From an uncultured Saprospiraceae bacterium (lineage in GTDB: Bacteria; Bacteroidota; Bacteroidia; Chitinophagales; Saprospiraceae), in contig CALJIQ010000214.1 in assembly GCA_937973995.1 (NCBI GenBank), forward strand, positions 1 through 34,751: a DNA stretch of 34,751 nt. Reading direction: 5' to 3'. Shown here in pieces: positions 2,318-31,697 of this stretch; the stretch's first letter is position 1, and each line of letters begins with the position of its first letter. The notes beneath the pieces were generated by a model. It was not told the origin of the DNA, did no database searches, and was given only the letters and a program-made list of their open reading frames with translations. A program made the translations under genes and the position numbers.

Positions 2318-3052
2318 ATGAAATTAAGACTATTCTTTCTAATCCTATGTTCTCTTTGTGCCTACTTATACTTAGAAGCACAAATCGAAGACCCCAAAGC
2401 AACAGAAGTTTGGGAGCCCGAACCAAGAGTCGTAAGCCCAGGCACAGGCACTGCCCCACCCTCTGACGCCATTATTTTATTCGATGGAACTAGTCTGGAT
2501 GGATGGACCAATGGAAAAGGAGAAGCTGCTGGTTGGAAAATAGCAGATGGTGCTATGACCGTCGTAAAGGGAACAGGAGATGTAAAGACAAAACGAAAGT
2601 TTGGTAGCTGTCAATTACACCTAGAATGGAGAACACCAAAAGAAATCGAGGGAAAGGGGCAAGGACGAGGTAATAGCGGTGTGTTTTTAAGTGACACCTA
2701 TGAAGTGCAGGTATTAGACAGCTATAAAAATCGCACTTATTCTAATGGACAAGCCGCTTCTATTTATAAGCAATACTTGCCCTTGGTCAATGCCTGCCGC
2801 GCTCCAGGAGAATGGCAAACCTATGATATTATTTATATGGCTCCAGTCTTTAATGATGATGGAATGAAGGTTCGATCAGGCACTTTGACCGTCATTCAAA
2901 ATGGAATTCTAGTCCAAAATAATGTAGAAATAAAAGGAACGACGCCTTATATCGGCTTGCCTAAAAATCCGCCGCATGGAAAGGGATCTTTGCGATTGCA
3001 AGATCATGGTAATCCGGTGAGTTATCGAAATATTTGGGTTCGGGAGCTGTAA
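2318..3052 (+). CDS. Secreted DUF1080 (3-keto-disaccharide hydrolase-like) protein
   Basis: Signal peptide, then [48 protein letters not shown] and [22 protein letters not shown]. Confidence 0.9.
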
Positions 3053-3087
3053 GAGGGAGATTACTTCGTGTTATTGAGGGTTATTGT

Positions 3088-3142
3088 AAGTTATTAAAGG
3101 TTATTGAGAGCTTTAATAACTCTCAATAACCTTTAATAACTT
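3088..3142. terminator. Long perfect hairpin between convergent genes (23-bp stem, 9-nt loop)
   Basis: AAGTTATTAAAGGTTATTGAGAG / CTCTCAATAACCTTTAATAACTT between the DUF1080 and typA stop codons. Confidence 0.75.
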
Positions 3143-3149
3143 TAACTTC

Positions 3150-4961
3150 TTACACAACACTCAAGGCTTTATTGTTAGCACGCTTGCGCTCATGATCTTT
3201 CAGCAATACTTTTCTGAGACGAATAGAAGTTGGCGTCACTTCCACATATTCATCTGCTTGAATATATTCCAATGCCTCCTCTAAGGAGAATACCACAGGT
3301 GGCACCAAACGCATCTTCGCATCTGCCCCAGAGGAACGCATATTACTTAGCTTCTTCGTTTTAGTCAAATTAATCACCAAGTCACCTGGACGGCTATTCT
3401 CTCCTACCACTTGTCCTTCGTAAATCTCCTCATTAGGTTTGATAAAAAACTTACCTCTTTCTTGAAGATTATTGATACTATAAGGAATAGATTTTCCTTT
3501 CTCCATACTAATTAAAGAGCCATTAATTCTACCTGGAATTTCTCCTTTGAAGGGTTGAAATTCTTTAAAACGGTGGGTCATAATAGCTTCTCCAGCAGAA
3601 GAAGTCATCAAGTTACTTCTCAATCCGATAATCCCTCTGGAGGGAATCTCAAATTGTAATAAGACCCGATCCGCTTTTGGCTCCATAGCCAACATCATCC
3701 CTTTTCGCTTCGTCACCATTTCTATCGCTTTTCCAGAAGTAGCCTCCGGAATGTCAATGGTTAATTCTTCAATAGGTTCGCTCTTAATACCATCCATTTG
3801 TTTGATGATAACTTGTGGCTGACCTATTTGTAATTCATATCCTTCTCTTCGCATCGTCTCAATCAACACCGACAAGTGAAGCACCCCTCTCCCATATACC
3901 TTGAAAGAATCCGCTGATTCAGTCTGCTCTACTCGAAGTGCCAAGTTCTTTTCTAATTCCTTTTCCAAACGCTCCTTGATATGTCGAGAAGTAACAAATT
4001 TTCCTTCCTGCCCAAAGAATGGAGAATCATTAATGGTAAAAAGCATAGACATGGTAGGTTCATCAATAGCGATGGTGGCCAATGCTTCTGGATTTTCAGG
4101 GTCCGCTATCGTATCTCCGATCTCAAAATTCTCTACTCCTTGAATGGCACAAATATCTCCTGCTTGTACTTCTTCTACCTTCTTTTTACCTAGCCCCTCA
4201 AAAGTAAACATACCTTTAATTCGATGCTTTTTGATCTCTCCCTCCTTATTGATCAATGCCACATCCGTATTCGTCTTCAAGGTTCCTCTATTCAGTCTGC
4301 CGATAGCCATTCGACCCGTATATTTAGAATAGTCTAAGGAAGTAACTAACATTTGGACCGTTCCTTCTTCAACCGTTGGCGGAGGTATATGCTCAATAAT
4401 GGCATCCAATAGTGGCGTAATATTATCCGTAGGTTGTTGCCAATCATCACTCATCCAGCCATACTTAGCAGAGCCATATAAGGTATTAAAATCCAATTGT
4501 TCTTCTGTAGCATCCAGATTGATCATTAGATCAAAAACCGCTTCATTTACTTCTTCTGGCGTACAGTTCTCTTTATCTACCTTATTAACGACCACCATTG
4601 GCTTCAAACCCAATTCAATTGCCTTTTGCAATACAAATCTAGTCTGCGGCATAGGTCCTTCAAAGGCATCTACTAATAGAATCACCCCATCTGCCATATT
4701 CAGTACACGTTCTACTTCTCCTCCAAAATCGCTGTGACCAGGGGTATCAATAATATTAATCTTAACCCCTTTGTAGGTAATAGATACATTTTTTGAAACG
4801 ATGGTAATTCCACGCTCTCGTTCCAAATCATTATTATCCATAATTAACTCTCCTGGCTTTTCGTGATCGCCAAAGAGTTTACCCGCAAAAATCATTTTAT
4901 CCACTAGCGTCGTTTTCCCGTGGTCAACGTGTGCTATAATGGCAATATTTCTAATGTCCAT
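3150..4961 (-). CDS. typA: Ribosome-associated translational GTPase TypA/BipA
   Basis: IAIIAHVDHGKTTLVDKM, RERGITI, DTPGHSDFGGEVERVL, NKVDKE; full-length TypA architecture. The start is corrected to the ATG at 4961 (MDIRNIAIIAHVDHGKTT). Confidence 0.97.
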   Translation of the reverse strand: MDIRNIAIIAHVDHGKTTLVDKMIFAGKLFGDHEKPGELIMDNNDLERERGITIVSKNVSITYKGVKINIIDTPGHSDFGGEVERVLNMADGVILLVDAFEGPMPQTRFVLQKAIELGLKPMVVVNKVDKENCTPEEVNEAVFDLMINLDATEEQLDFNTLYGSAKYGWMSDDWQQPTDNITPLLDAIIEHIPPPTVEEGTVQMLVTSLDYSKYTGRMAIGRLNRGTLKTNTDVALINKEGEIKKHRIKGMFTFEGLGKKKVEEVQAGDICAIQGVENFEIGDTIADPENPEALATIAIDEPTMSMLFTINDSPFFGQEGKFVTSRHIKERLEKELEKNLALRVEQTESADSFKVYGRGVLHLSVLIETMRREGYELQIGQPQVIIKQMDGIKSEPIEELTIDIPEATSGKAIEMVTKRKGMMLAMEPKADRVLLQFEIPSRGIIGLRSNLMTSSAGEAIMTHRFKEFQPFKGEIPGRINGSLISMEKGKSIPYSINNLQERGKFFIKPNEEIYEGQVVGENSRPGDLVINLTKTKKLSNMRSSGADAKMRLVPPVVFSLEEALEYIQADEYVEVTPTSIRLRKVLLKDHERKRANNKALSVV

Positions 4962-7897: not shown

Positions 7898-8029
7898 GGT
7901 TCTTTGACATATCCCGTGAAAAATCAACTCGTCCGATGACTAGCGTCGTCGGATGAGCTGATTTTAGCCATCCGACGACGAAGTCATCGGACGGTTAAAA
8001 TCTTATTCCACGGGATTTGTCAGAGAACC
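7898..8029. repeat. 132-bp REP/MITE-like palindromic element (family A, copy 1)
   Basis: Terminal arms GGTTCTTTGACATATCCCGTG / CACGGGATTTGTCAGAGAACC (19/21 complementary) and internal arms CGTCCGATGACT...AGTCATCGGACGG and CGTCGTCGGATG...CATCCGACGACG. Confidence 0.9.
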
Positions 8030-8076
8030 TGATTTTTGACTGTTAGGTAATTCCGAAGACCATTGGTGTATTCATC

Positions 8077-8145
8077 AATCAGATCACTTTGAGTGATCAG
8101 ATTGAACGAAAACGTCTAATCTGATGACTTTCAGTTCATCTGATT
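8077..8145. repeat. Double-hairpin intergenic repeat (family B, copy 1, divergent)
   Basis: AATCAGATCACTTTGAGTGATCAGATT, then AACGTCT, then AATCTGATGACTTTCAGTTCATCTGATT. Same layout as 12629-12763 and 31464-31598. Confidence 0.8.
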
Positions 8146-10929: not shown

Positions 10930-11010
10930 GGCGTTTTGGCATTGTGGCAGGATGGCTTTATGGCCATAAAGCCGCAATGCCATAACACCACAATGCCATA
11001 ATGCCAAAAT
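10930..11010. repeat. Palindromic GGCATTGTGG-word repeat between convergent genes
   Basis: 20-bp perfect palindrome GGCTTTATGGCCATAAAGCC (10954-10973) flanked by TTTTGGCATTGTGGC / TGCCATAATGCCAAAA. Confidence 0.9.
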
Positions 11011-11022
11011 TTTTCCCACCAC

Positions 11023-12564: not shown

Positions 12565-12628
12565 AATAATTTATTACGAGAATGGAACTGATTAATATGA
12601 GGTGTAAAAATAGGGAATATGTCAATTG

Positions 12629-12763
12629 AGTGTAAACCATCTAGAGGTCGCAAAATTATCAATCAGCTCACTTTGAGTGAGCTGATTGAATGATAGCGTC
12701 TCGTCTGCTCACTTTGAGTGAGCGGAAGAGTTATTCTTTAAGCTCTCAAATTATTACGCACTT
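12629..12763. mobile_element. MITE-like double-hairpin element (family B, copy 2), 135 bp, flanked by 10-bp direct repeats ATGTCAATTG (12619-12628 / 12764-12773)
   Basis: Hairpins TCAATCAGCTCACTTTGAGTGAGCTGATTGA (12659-12689) and TCTGCTCACTTTGAGTGAGCGGA (12704-12726); perfect 10-bp flanking direct repeats. Confidence 0.75.
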
Positions 12764-12766
12764 ATG

Positions 12767-14236
12767 TCAATTGTATTGTCCCAAAGGTCTCACTTCCGTC
12801 CCTTGGATTCCAGTTATTTTATCTCCTAAAATAATACGAATGCTATCTGCTTTTGCTTGTAATTGCTGGACCACCTCTGGATGGTTCGCAATCCTATTTT
12901 TCGTTTCAAAAGGATCATTAATTAGGTTATAGAGGGCGAGGTCGGTGCCTATTTCCTCATAAGGGACCAAAGCACCATCTTGTCCACCTGGCCTGCCATT
13001 TAAAGAATTAAAGGAATGCGGTAAGACTAATTTCCATTCTTGGGTCATCACTGCTTCTAACTGATTTTTATTCATGTAAAAATAGTAAGCCTCATGCGCC
13101 ATTAGTTCAGACGTTCCTTGCAACTGAGCTAATACATTTTTACCATCAATTTTTTTGCTAGGTAGAGGAGCGTCTGCTAAGTGGGCGAAGGTAGGTAAAA
13201 GATCAATTCCATTAATAGGCGTATCAATAGTTTTTCCAGCAGGTATTTTATTTGGATAGCGAATTATTAAAGGAGAACGAATACCGCCTTCAAAAGAAGT
13301 TTCTTTTCCTTCTTTTAATCCACCAGTTGAACCCCCATGATCTCCGTAGGCAATCCAAGGACCATTATCCGACATAAAAAGCACCATTGTGTGTTGGTCG
13401 ATATGTAGGTCTTTGAGCGTTTTCATAATCTCCCCTGTGGACCAGTCTAATTCCATCATGACATCGCCATACAAACCTCTTTTTGATTTTCCTTTAAATT
13501 CGTCAGATACATATAAAGGGACATGCGGCATAGGATGTGAAAGCACGGCAAAAAAAGGCTTTTCCTGATGTTGTTTGATAAAAGCAATGGTTTTCTCCGT
13601 CAACAAACGAGTCATATTTTTTTGAAGGACTTCATCAACTGTATCAATCGTAGTTGTATTTTTTATCAGTGGTAGGGGAGGAAAGGTATAGTCTTTTCGA
13701 GGGTTTAGCGGCCACATATCGTTAGAGTAAGGGATACCAAAATATTCATCAAACCCCTGGTTAGTGGGAAGAAATGCTGGATGATGCCCCAAGTGCCATT
13801 TGCCATAATAAGCGGAAGTATAGCCTACTGTTTGCAGGAGGTCGGCAATGGTTTCTTCTTCTGGGTTAAGTCCTGTTTTGGAATGCGGCAAAAATACCCA
13901 ATCAACGCCTACTCGATTTGGATAACAACCCGTAAGTATTCCTGCTCTTGAGGGCGTGCATTGAGATTGAGGAACATAAAAACGAGTGTACTTCGTCCCT
14001 TCTTTTCCTAGCAAATCAATATTAGGTGTGGCTATATCTTTCGCCCCAAAGGCAGACAAATCTCCATAGCCTTGATCGTCGGTTAAGATTAAAAGGAAAT
14101 TGGGCAGTTCTTGTTTAGTAGGAGAAGTTGCTTCTGTTTTGTTTGGCGTACAGCTACCTAATAAAATACATAGACAGAGAAAGGTGTAGTTCAAAATTAG
14201 GACACTATCTAAAATTGATTTTTTATGAAGCTCCAT
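12767..14236 (-). CDS. Sulfatase (type I, Cys-type formylglycine signature), probable lipoprotein
   Basis: QSQCTPSRAGILTGCYPNR sulfatase signature; NFLLILTDDQGYGDLSAFG; LLGSC lipobox. The start is corrected to 14236 (MELHKK) because the longer ORF runs into a terminator hairpin. Confidence 0.93.
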   Translation of the reverse strand: MELHKKSILDSVLILNYTFLCLCILLGSCTPNKTEATSPTKQELPNFLLILTDDQGYGDLSAFGAKDIATPNIDLLGKEGTKYTRFYVPQSQCTPSRAGILTGCYPNRVGVDWVFLPHSKTGLNPEEETIADLLQTVGYTSAYYGKWHLGHHPAFLPTNQGFDEYFGIPYSNDMWPLNPRKDYTFPPLPLIKNTTTIDTVDEVLQKNMTRLLTEKTIAFIKQHQEKPFFAVLSHPMPHVPLYVSDEFKGKSKRGLYGDVMMELDWSTGEIMKTLKDLHIDQHTMVLFMSDNGPWIAYGDHGGSTGGLKEGKETSFEGGIRSPLIIRYPNKIPAGKTIDTPINGIDLLPTFAHLADAPLPSKKIDGKNVLAQLQGTSELMAHEAYYFYMNKNQLEAVMTQEWKLVLPHSFNSLNGRPGGQDGALVPYEEIGTDLALYNLINDPFETKNRIANHPEVVQQLQAKADSIRIILGDKITGIQGTEVRPLGQYN

Positions 14237-14263
14237 TGTAATATAGCATAAGTATGAAAAAAC

Positions 14264-14300
14264 AGAAAGGCTCATCAACAGTCTGTTTATGAGCCTTTCT
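14264..14300 (-). terminator. Rho-independent terminator after the TonB-dependent receptor
   Basis: Minus strand: AGAAAGGCTCAT / ATGAGCCTTTCT followed by GTTTTTTC. Confidence 0.85.
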
Positions 14301-23721: not shown

Positions 23722-23730
23722 AACAATAGA

Positions 23731-23792
23731 TCAATGGAACAATAGAACAATGAAGCAATGGAACAATGAAGCAATGAAGCAATGAAGCAATG
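23731..23792. repeat. CAATGGAACAATGAAGCAATGAA word repeat (right outer arm)
   Basis: Direct reading of about 8-bp degenerate tandem words. Confidence 0.9.
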
Positions 23793-23802
23793 AATTTACC
23801 CC

Positions 23803-28000: not shown

Positions 28001-28105
28001 AAATTAAGAAAAATTCACAAAAGCACGCAAAATAAGAAAACTATACATAGATAACTCGGATTGTTTCGTTTTCTTTTAGTAAATTTTTTCTGAGAAAATA
28101 CTTAA

Positions 28106-28254
28106 TTGACTAGGTCTTGTGGTTCTATGGTGTTTTGGTAGTATGGTTAAGTATTCAATATCAAAAATAGAGTTCAAAGCCAATAAAATTTTCAGAAAGG
28201 TGGGCTTTACCACAATACCATAAAACCAAAATATCACAACACCTAGTCAATTAC
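28106..28254. mobile_element. MITE-like element (family C), 149 bp, flanked by 12-bp direct repeats GAAAATACTTAA (28094-28105 / 28255-28266)
   Basis: Inverted ends TTGACTAGGTCTTGTG / CACAACACCTAGTCAA (one mismatch) and perfect 12-bp flanking direct repeats. Confidence 0.8.
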
Positions 28255-28269
28255 GAAAATACTTAAAAT

Positions 28270-28893
28270 ATGAAGAAATTATTCTTAGGGTTTGGCTTAC
28301 CTGTTTTCTTTGCTTGTGCGATCTCTGGTCCTGCCAAAGAAACAACTAGCATAAACGAGGATCAAAAAAAAGCAATAGAAGCATATCAGCAGGGATTAAA
28401 TGATAAATATACAAATCCCATTACTTCTCCCTTGAAAGAAAAAGCCAGTGAATTTGAAGCTCATTCCTTTTTTCCAATTGATTTAAATTATCGAGTAGAA
28501 GCCACTTTTACCAAACTTGAAGATGAACCATTCTTTAATATAGAAACATCAGGTCCTAAGAATCCCGCTTATCGGAAATATGGTTATTTGGATTTCACCT
28601 TACAAGGAAAGCCCTATCAACTAGTTTTGCTCCAAAATCAAATGAATATGCGAAACCCTCTTTACAGAGATCATTTATTTCTAGCTTTCACAGACTTAAC
28701 CAGTGGCGTATCTACTTATGGAGGCGGTCGGTATATCGATATGAAAATTCCTACTTCTAATACCATGCTGCTAGATTTCAATATGAGTTATAATCCATAT
28801 TGTGCCTATACGACCGGCTATTCTTGTCCTGTTCCACCAGAAGAAAATTTTTTAGAAATTGCTATTGAGGCGGGGATAAAATTGGAGCAATGA
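28270..28893 (+). CDS. DUF1684-family lipoprotein
   Basis: FFACAIS lipobox-like; FFPIDLNYRVEATFTKL...LDFTLQGKPYQLVLLQ...DHLFLAFTDLTSGVSTYGGGRYIDMKIP...LDFNMSYNPYCAYTTGYSCPVPPEENFLEIAIEAGIK. Confidence 0.9.
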   Translation: MKKLFLGFGLPVFFACAISGPAKETTSINEDQKKAIEAYQQGLNDKYTNPITSPLKEKASEFEAHSFFPIDLNYRVEATFTKLEDEPFFNIETSGPKNPAYRKYGYLDFTLQGKPYQLVLLQNQMNMRNPLYRDHLFLAFTDLTSGVSTYGGGRYIDMKIPTSNTMLLDFNMSYNPYCAYTTGYSCPVPPEENFLEIAIEAGIKLEQ

Positions 28894-28899
28894 TTTTTT

Positions 28900-28968
28900 G
28901 GCGTTATGGCGTTGTGGCGTTGTGGCATTACGGCTTTTTGGGCCATAAAACCACAATGCCATAACGCC
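28900..28968. repeat. GGCGTTATGGCGTTGTGG inverted repeat between convergent genes
   Basis: Arms 28900-28917 / 28951-28968, 17/18 complementary; overlaps the methyltransferase stop codon. Confidence 0.9.
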
Positions 28969-30164
28969 TATATTTCTTTCTTAATCAACGCCATATAAAA
29001 TCCATCAAAGCCTGCTTGTGGGAGGAGTTGTTGTTCTTCCAATAACGTAAATGCCCCTTTCTGTTCTGCTAAGAAACTTTGAACTTGTTCTTGATTTTCA
29101 GAAGGTAGAATACTGCAGGTAGCATAGACCATTTGTCCATTGGGTTTGAGCATAGCAGAGTAGGTGGCTAAGATTTTTTTTTGTAGCGCTGTTACTCTTT
29201 CTAAGAAAGCGGCATCCAGTTTCCATTTAGCATCTGGATTTCTTTTTAAAACCCCTAAACCAGAACAAGGCACATCTATTAACAAACGGTCTGCTTTTCC
29301 TTTTAAGCGTTTGATTACTTTTTGATTGATGATAGGACGGGTTTCTATAATATCGACCCCTGCCCGTTTTGCTCTTCTTCGTAATTCTTTTAATTTCCAC
29401 TCATGGGTATCCAAAGCTAGTACTCTTCCTTTGTTTTTCATTAAGGCCGCTAAATGTAAGGTTTTACCACCAGCCCCTGCACAAGCATCAACGACCACCA
29501 TTCCGGGTGCTACCTGAAGGAAGGGGGCAATTAGTTGGGAACCTCCGTCTTGTACTTCAAAAAATCCTTGTTTAAAAGCGGCTTGTTGAAAAAGATTGGT
29601 TCTTTTAGATATAATGAGCGCATCTTCGCTGTACTTCTTGGAAGTAATTTCATTGGATTGTAGCAGCCGTTGTAGGTCGGTTCGGTTGGTTTTTAAGGTA
29701 TTCGTTCTTATGACTAAAGGAGCAGATTTATTGAGAGCGGATAGGGTAGGAGGCCATTGTTCTTTTAATGCTTTTTCTCCTAATTCATCCAGCCAATCGG
29801 GAATAGATTCTTTAATGGCTCGACGGTTTTTAAGGTTAGCATAGGCCGTTTGGATAGCGGTTGGTTGTAGAGGCTTAAATTCCTTCCAGTCAGGTAAGGT
29901 ATTGTTATTAATAATAAACCAAGTACCAATCATTTCCCACCAAGCCTGTGAAGTTTTAGGTCGTTTACCTCTAATTTCATACAGTAAGCGATACCAACGA
30001 ACGACATCATAGGTGGTCTCTGCAATAAATTTTCGGTCTCTTGAGCCCCAACGCTTATCCAGTTTTAGCGTTTTTTCTATCACCTTGTCCGCATATCTTT
30101 TTTCTTGAAAAATCTGCTGGAGTGCGGTCACCACAGCCCTTACTAAATTTGGATATAATTTCAT
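28968..30164 (-). CDS. rsmB: RsmB/NOP-type rRNA (cytosine-C5) methyltransferase
   Basis: FEVQDGGSQLIAPFLQVAPGMVVVDACAGAGGKTLHLA, RLLIDVPCSGLGVLKRNPDAKWKL, YATCSILPSENQEQV. Start corrected to 30164 (MKLYPNLV). Confidence 0.9.
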   Translation of the reverse strand: MKLYPNLVRAVVTALQQIFQEKRYADKVIEKTLKLDKRWGSRDRKFIAETTYDVVRWYRLLYEIRGKRPKTSQAWWEMIGTWFIINNNTLPDWKEFKPLQPTAIQTAYANLKNRRAIKESIPDWLDELGEKALKEQWPPTLSALNKSAPLVIRTNTLKTNRTDLQRLLQSNEITSKKYSEDALIISKRTNLFQQAAFKQGFFEVQDGGSQLIAPFLQVAPGMVVVDACAGAGGKTLHLAALMKNKGRVLALDTHEWKLKELRRRAKRAGVDIIETRPIINQKVIKRLKGKADRLLIDVPCSGLGVLKRNPDAKWKLDAAFLERVTALQKKILATYSAMLKPNGQMVYATCSILPSENQEQVQSFLAEQKGAFTLLEEQQLLPQAGFDGFYMALIKKEI

Positions 30165-31340: not shown

Positions 31341-31453
31341 GGTGTTATGGCATTGTGGTGTTATGGCATTGTGGTGGAGCTAACTGTTGCGAAAATTTTA
31401 TCAATTTTCACCCCTATTTTGTTATTGATAAATCAACCATACAACCACAAAAC
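31341..31453. repeat. GGTGTTATGGCATTGTGG tandem repeat with weakly complementary right arm
   Basis: TGTTATGGCATTGTGG occurs twice in tandem from 31343; ACAACCACAAAACCTAATC near 31441-31459 resembles the right end of family C. Confidence 0.65.
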
Positions 31454-31463
31454 CTAATCAATT

Positions 31464-31598
31464 GAGTGTAAAACAATCTGGGGGCATCAAATTTATTCAT
31501 CAGCTCACTTTGGAGTGAGCAGATGAAACGATAACGTCTCATCTGATGACTCCAAAGTCATCTGATGAGTTGCTCTTTTGCCCCGTTCTGTTATAACT
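31464..31598. mobile_element. MITE-like double-hairpin element (family B, copy 3), 135 bp, flanked by 10-bp direct repeats CTAATCAATT (31454-31463 / 31599-31608)
   Basis: TCATCAGCTCACTTTGGAGTGAGCAGATGA and CATCTGATGACTCCAAAGTCATCTGATG hairpins; same internal length as copy 2. Confidence 0.78.
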
Positions 31599-31634
31599 CT
31601 AATCAATTACATTTCTTCAATAAATCAAAAAAAA

Positions 31635-31663
31635 ACGGCTGTATCAGGAACAGATACAGCCGT
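31635..31663 (-). terminator. Rho-independent terminator of the OmpA-family gene
   Basis: ACGGCTGTATC-aggaaca-GATACAGCCGT with a T9 tract on the minus strand. Confidence 0.93.
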
Positions 31664-31697
31664 TAAGCCAAATTTATAATTGTATGAAACTTATTAT

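Follow-up and report, generated by a model that had tools for sequence, protein, structure and literature searches.

A probable MITE family with a 9-bp palindromic target and a double-hairpin cargo in Saprospiraceae

Two stretches of the window, that is, of the whole of contig 214 (34,751 nucleotides) from a 5.4-Mb Saprospiraceae draft in 562 contigs, are very probably copies of one non-autonomous DNA transposon (MITE) that is mobilised in trans. An earlier note on this DNA had described two 135-bp elements with 10-bp direct repeats. The sites were recovered as described (CTAATCAATT at 31454-31463 and 31599-31608; ATGTCAATTG at 12619-12628 and 12764-12773; 135 bp enclosed by each pair), but the family register replaces these lengths with 136 bp for the element and 9 bp for the duplication. 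The last element base of copy B is the C at 31599, which the C at 31454 matches by accident; copy A begins with the G at 12628, and the G at 12773 is its accidental match. The features of the window are listed here, with the ends of copy B and the register of its duplications set by the family.

8074-8135 (+): third double-hairpin core, without GAGTGTAAAACA ends (repeat family D5)
12619-12627 (no strand): left 9-bp duplication of copy A, ATGTCAATT
12628-12763 (+): copy A of the MITE, 136 bp, from alignment with copy B and the family
12659-12689 (+): hairpin 1 of copy A, from the fold
12701-12729 (+): hairpin 2 of copy A, from the fold
12764-12772 (no strand): right 9-bp duplication of copy A, ATGTCAATT, overlapping the 3' end of the sulfatase gene
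12767-14278 (-): sulfatase gene (Pfam), its 3' end under the right duplication of copy A
31455-31463 (no strand): left 9-bp target-site duplication of copy B, TAATCAATT
31464-31599 (+): copy B of the MITE, 136 bp
31496-31527 (+): hairpin 1 of copy B, CATCAGCTCACT/AGTGAGCAGATG with one A.A mismatch, from folds and covariation over 30 copies
31528-31537 (+): spacer between the hairpins of copy B, ACGATAACGT region, with different letters in congeners
31538-31569 (+): hairpin 2 of copy B, CATCTGATGACT/AGTCATCTGATG with one T.T mismatch, from folds and covariation
31600-31608 (no strand): right 9-bp target-site duplication of copy B, TAATCAATT

Alignment and folding reproduced the left end, two-hairpin layout and GCGTCT/ACGTCT spacer that had been reported as common to copies A and B. 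Their identical length is real but partly luck; intact members of the family span 136-139 bp, with a mode near 138 bp. In the family alignment the element starts GAGTG, finishes CACTC and has no coding capacity. Intact copies carry the terminal inverted repeats expected of a MITE, GAGTGTAAAACA...TGTTTTACACTC, in which GAGTGTAWAACA(A) is followed on the inside by G-rich GGGGC. Copy B retains the left end GAGTGTAAAACA, has a worn right end (TGTTATAACTC in place of TGTTTTACACTC) and is 91-97% identical to 12 other copies in its own genome. Copy A, more diverged in the family alignment and with its right end worn to ACGCACTT, is the older of the two. A nucleotide search returned at least 12 further copies in the same genome, 91-97% identical along the whole element or most of it, with one truncated copy among them, together with many partial matches. 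These numbers are lower bounds, and they give about 13 young, dispersed copies of a short, non-coding sequence, as befits a MITE. Chance similarity is ruled out by about 13 near-identical copies and by RNA and DNA fold z-scores well below those of shuffles.

All end-like pairs (≤2 and ≤3 mismatches) lying 70-700 bp apart were scanned in every fetched locus, and the offset of any flank repeat was scored. Among 122 candidate end pairs, 30 had perfect 9-bp flank repeats and 6 more had one mismatch; the 122 include chance or mismatched pairings, and 36/122 is not to be read as a failure rate. Repeats of 5-8 bp gave one perfect pair, and none of the 122 pairs had a flank repeat of 10, 11, 12 or 13 bp, perfect or with one mismatch. 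The target-site duplication is thus fixed at 9 bp, again as in a MITE, and the tenth base was rejected as part of it and is put down to coincidence. The 36 targets yield a palindromic, AT-rich consensus, AAWTNAWTT, in which positions 4 (T) and 6 (A) each reach 94% and the ends are A/T, a symmetry that arises by construction because both strands were pooled. TCAATT, shared by the two window duplications and proposed earlier to reflect a target preference, corresponds to positions 4-9, the right half of this consensus. The alignment of genome copies that had been suggested as a check accordingly yielded ends that agree between copies, a duplication of constant length and a target logo that contains TCAATT.

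The family extends to relatives of the source genome, the congeners in the public collection being Saprospiraceae MAGs in the form of fragmented drafts. Counts of GAGTGTAWAACA on the two strands were 41/40 in G002, 24/19 in G008 and 9/13 in the window's genome, against 1/0, 0/0 and 0/0 for a reversed-pattern control; the pattern is rare in G003 (0/3) and near zero in five other congeners. Dozens of further copies are present in G002 and G008, and at least three congeneric species hold many copies. A longer end pattern was found in 3 of 248 genomes of the family Saprospiraceae, one of the three having a lone end, and a scan of 84,980 species returned the end pattern mainly from these MAGs, along with a small number of chance sites. 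The same ends, with perfect 9-bp duplications, were also seen in a Calditrichota MAG (L281, AATTGAATA) and a Flammeovirgaceae MAG (L378, TATTGAATT), where a binning error is possible; the interiors of both differ from the double hairpin and are palindromic and rich in CCCCC/GGGGG. Viral contigs, plasmids and phages gave no match to the element.

Twenty-two of the 23 classifiable copies lie between ORFs, 17 of these between co-directional genes, and the remaining copy lies inside a ~100-codon open frame beside longer ORFs. The C213 copy, in the window's genome, occupies nearly the whole gap between two genes. Seven congeners (G001-G006 and G008), those where both genes were readable together, keep the gene pair, lack the element and have unrelated DNA in between. 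This comparison, one of presence or absence at the locus and not of a base-exact empty site, shows a species-specific insertion. In congeners the same gap holds another palindrome, AGAACAGAGAGCAGAGAATAGAG...CTCTATTCTCTGCTCT (L381, L382 and L383), which suggests fast turnover of intergenic repeats. At 12628 an empty-site comparison gave no result, only one flanking gene being conserved.

Judged from sequence comparison, transposition of the element is well supported. A DDE-type transposase supplied in trans would probably recognise the two ends and act by cut and paste, cutting the target with a 9-bp stagger and inserting the element, and host repair would fill the stagger to leave the 9-bp duplication. 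A DDE enzyme is proposed because such a duplication at a fixed palindromic target is its signature, although the class is a guess made solely from the duplication. IS10 uses a 9-bp target, NGCTNAGCN, with a T-N-A core, and the similar core here makes an IS4-superfamily enzyme the first guess. The search for a DDE parent covered PF00872 and PF01609. None of the 23 PF01609 (IS4/IS5) loci in the genus has these ends, and flanking inverted repeats of any kind gave no match. An IS256 origin was rejected, as PF00872 is absent from the two MITE-richest relatives, G002 and G008; the single IS256-type (PF00872) copy in the window's genome has ends with CTGTTCANTGAACTGTGTCA, unlike the MITE. The fetched loci contained no autonomous or coding element with these ends, and a search for a transposase between end copies separated by no more than 5 kb gave a single, unconvincing candidate with a poor left end (L314, 1200 bp). 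This is weak counter-evidence, because multi-copy IS often go missing from fragmented drafts, and all the congeners are such drafts.

Between its ends the element carries two hairpins, and in copy B hairpin 2 is a near inverted copy of hairpin 1. On both strands the window copies are far more stably folded than shuffles (RNA z -5.2 to -8.2; DNA z -7.7 for copy B). Across 30 full-length copies the two-hairpin fold pairs 92.7% of cells, with 11 pairs changed on both sides compared with 7.0 in shuffles and 0-4 in slid controls, counts that are not independent events since the copies are related. The alternative, a single long hairpin, pairs 85.8% with 6 double changes, no better than shuffles in this last respect. 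Position pairs 79-107, 87-99 and 41-56 favour the local hairpins, and 39-103, 58-83 and 55-86 are better paired across hairpins, as an origin of hairpin 2 by inverted copying of hairpin 1 would predict. Judging from these alignments, the two stems are maintained by compensatory changes. A 92-bp version with one hairpin, flanked by a perfect 9-bp duplication (ATTTAAAAT), occurs on contig 40 of the window's genome (L054:1501-1592). Its neighbour there is the left end of a different MITE-like palindrome, which in the window occupies 7898-8029, with 21-bp ends GGTTCTTTGACATATCCCGTG / CACGGGATTTGTCAGAGAACC and a double hairpin of its own (CGTCCGATGACT..., CGTCGTCGGATG...).

The double hairpin is a REP-like palindromic cargo that is also present outside these ends. 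Pooled nucleotide matches place its core at roughly 55 sites in the window's genome, about 15 of which have recognisable ends and duplications; at about 40 the MITE ends are lacking or not shown. As a refinement of the MITE reading, and not an exclusive alternative to it, one transposon system may have picked up palindromes lying between two copies of its ends, the double hairpin being an older, independent REP-like repeat. We consider this a serious possibility, if somewhat short of an even chance. It would account for the many cores without these ends, for the same ends around other interiors within the genus (L285 with a perfect duplication; L222 and L224 with the left end only) and for the unrelated palindromes between these ends in Calditrichota and Flammeovirgaceae. 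Against capture, the worn outer parts of other core copies can be aligned by eye, in part, with the MITE interior, and some of the end-less cores may be MITEs in decay or members of a sister family whose ends were lost or changed. The role of the cargo is most likely that of a structured spacer, a 3'-UTR hairpin or simply an older captured palindrome. A broader model, which we put forward tentatively and think rather doubtful, has one end set (GAGTGTAWAACA, 9-bp T-N-A target) common to Saprospiraceae, Flammeovirgaceae and Calditrichota with exchangeable palindromic REP-like cargoes. The cargo in the window's genus would then be a double hairpin with two alternative folds, in which local pairing predominates and the cross-hairpin pair is usually kept where the local one is mismatched, and the whole would combine a DDE-mobilised MITE with a REPIN-like repeat.

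Several other repeats were met beside these elements. Core-bearing elements with other outer repeats, roughly AGTNNTTNGACANNAT..., and no clear duplication (L088, L089, L074, L076 and L079) may represent a sister family of MITEs. The window has intergenic tandem arrays of 8-bp period (GTGTTATGGCATTGTGG and CAATGGAA types) at 1214-1263, 10930-11012, 23724-23795, 28105-28245, 28884-28975 and 31341-31374, and several core-only double hairpins of other contigs sit inside such arrays. At the contig end (34501-34751) a 117-bp direct repeat with 99% identity, 134 bp from start to start, is a real duplication or an assembly artefact. A second MITE, with ends AATGTCGTCAACTTAAG, occupies the tip of hairpin 1 or 2 at L112, L115, L223, L285, L292, L342, L129 and others (G002, G008 and G003). 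It is nearly always inserted between ...CACTTNNAGTGG and AATGTCG, and some copies have a 12-bp duplication, such as CACTTCTAGTGG in L115; these loci were fetched via the host MITE, and target specificity is accordingly not proven by them. A further element, CAGGCTGACCG...CGGTCAGCCTG, is also found in hairpin tips. Insertion of IS elements into REP palindromes is known (PMC1525189). The more unusual features, namely the shared palindromic cargo, the occurrence of these ends in other lineages and hairpin tips serving as insertion sites, are treated as leads.

A family of structured non-coding RNAs or transcription terminators would also show strong folds, maintained pairing and a preference for sites between co-directional genes, but we judge it very improbable as an explanation. 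An Rfam search of the element returned no family, with chance matches to eukaryotic hairpins only, and copies within one species lie in unrelated contexts and in both orientations. Copy B, moreover, lies beyond a terminator-like hairpin that is already present (31627-31667). An RNA or terminator role could be a secondary effect and not the origin of the element.

Slightly less credible still is a REPIN/BIME-like element, in which two inverted REP palindromes are moved by a RAYT (TnpA_REP, an HUH Y1 enzyme). The two near-inverted hairpins with a short spacer, the intergenic location, the high copy number and the core copies for which MITE ends are missing or not shown all resemble such elements, and Y1_Tnp genes, including at least two RAYT-like ones, are present in the window's genome. 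Y1 elements, however, make no target duplications, whereas 9-bp duplications are found here, and the neighbourhoods of all four Y1 genes, where repeats flanking a RAYT would be expected, are free of core copies. The RAYT-like gene on contig 226 (L241, around 2602-3162) has on both sides several copies of its own, different REP-like palindrome, ATCGAAGTTGCAAACTTCGA. There is also no GTAG tag, and the spacer CGTC becomes CGTGC in G008, so that no tag is conserved.

Local slippage or recombination between the short direct repeats that bracket each window copy is of negligible probability and was rejected, as far as sequence can do so, by the test on 122 end pairs: flanks are unrelated between copies, yet the ends and the duplication length are constant across loci and species, and with the absence of the element at the C213 locus in the readable congeners this upholds the earlier preference for transposition.

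On the reading of a non-autonomous, trans-mobilised transposon, a marine lineage that has been little studied gains a clean insertion marker with a well-defined target rule. The element is also suited to asking how MITEs gain palindromic cargo and whether mobility, or the structure of RNA or DNA, is what preserves the hairpins. Should the ends truly span phyla, there would be a concrete target to search for, the missing transposase. Elements of this general kind are well known. The present family, with its palindromic target and double-hairpin cargo, appears not to have been described before, the open-licence papers and databases searched having yielded no account of it.

Among known systems, the IS10/IS50 group of the IS4 family has a 9-bp palindromic target with a T-N-A core, as here, but the ends of the element are unlike those of IS10 and no PF01609 gene was found with them. 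REPINs with a RAYT (PMC3116915) are alike in their two inverted palindromes, intergenic position and high copy number; the element differs in its terminal repeats and 9-bp duplication and is unlinked to the Y1 genes present. CGTC-tagged REPs (PMC3733652) resemble the copies in the window's genome in having inverted palindrome pairs with CGTC between them. They have stems of 8-9 bp and no dedicated transposase, whereas the stems here are about 14 pairs, CGTC is lost in congeners and MITE ends and a target duplication are present, which sets the element apart from them. Bacterial MITEs such as QMITE2 of Coxiella burnetii (reviewed in PMC10969869) share terminal inverted repeats, direct repeats of 7-9 bp and a palindromic core that is short and non-coding; in QMITE2 a REP is used as an IS target, as are the hairpin tips here. 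The element differs from these in its sequence, its fixed 9-bp duplication, its palindromic AAWTNAWTT target and a double-hairpin cargo that also occurs outside the ends.
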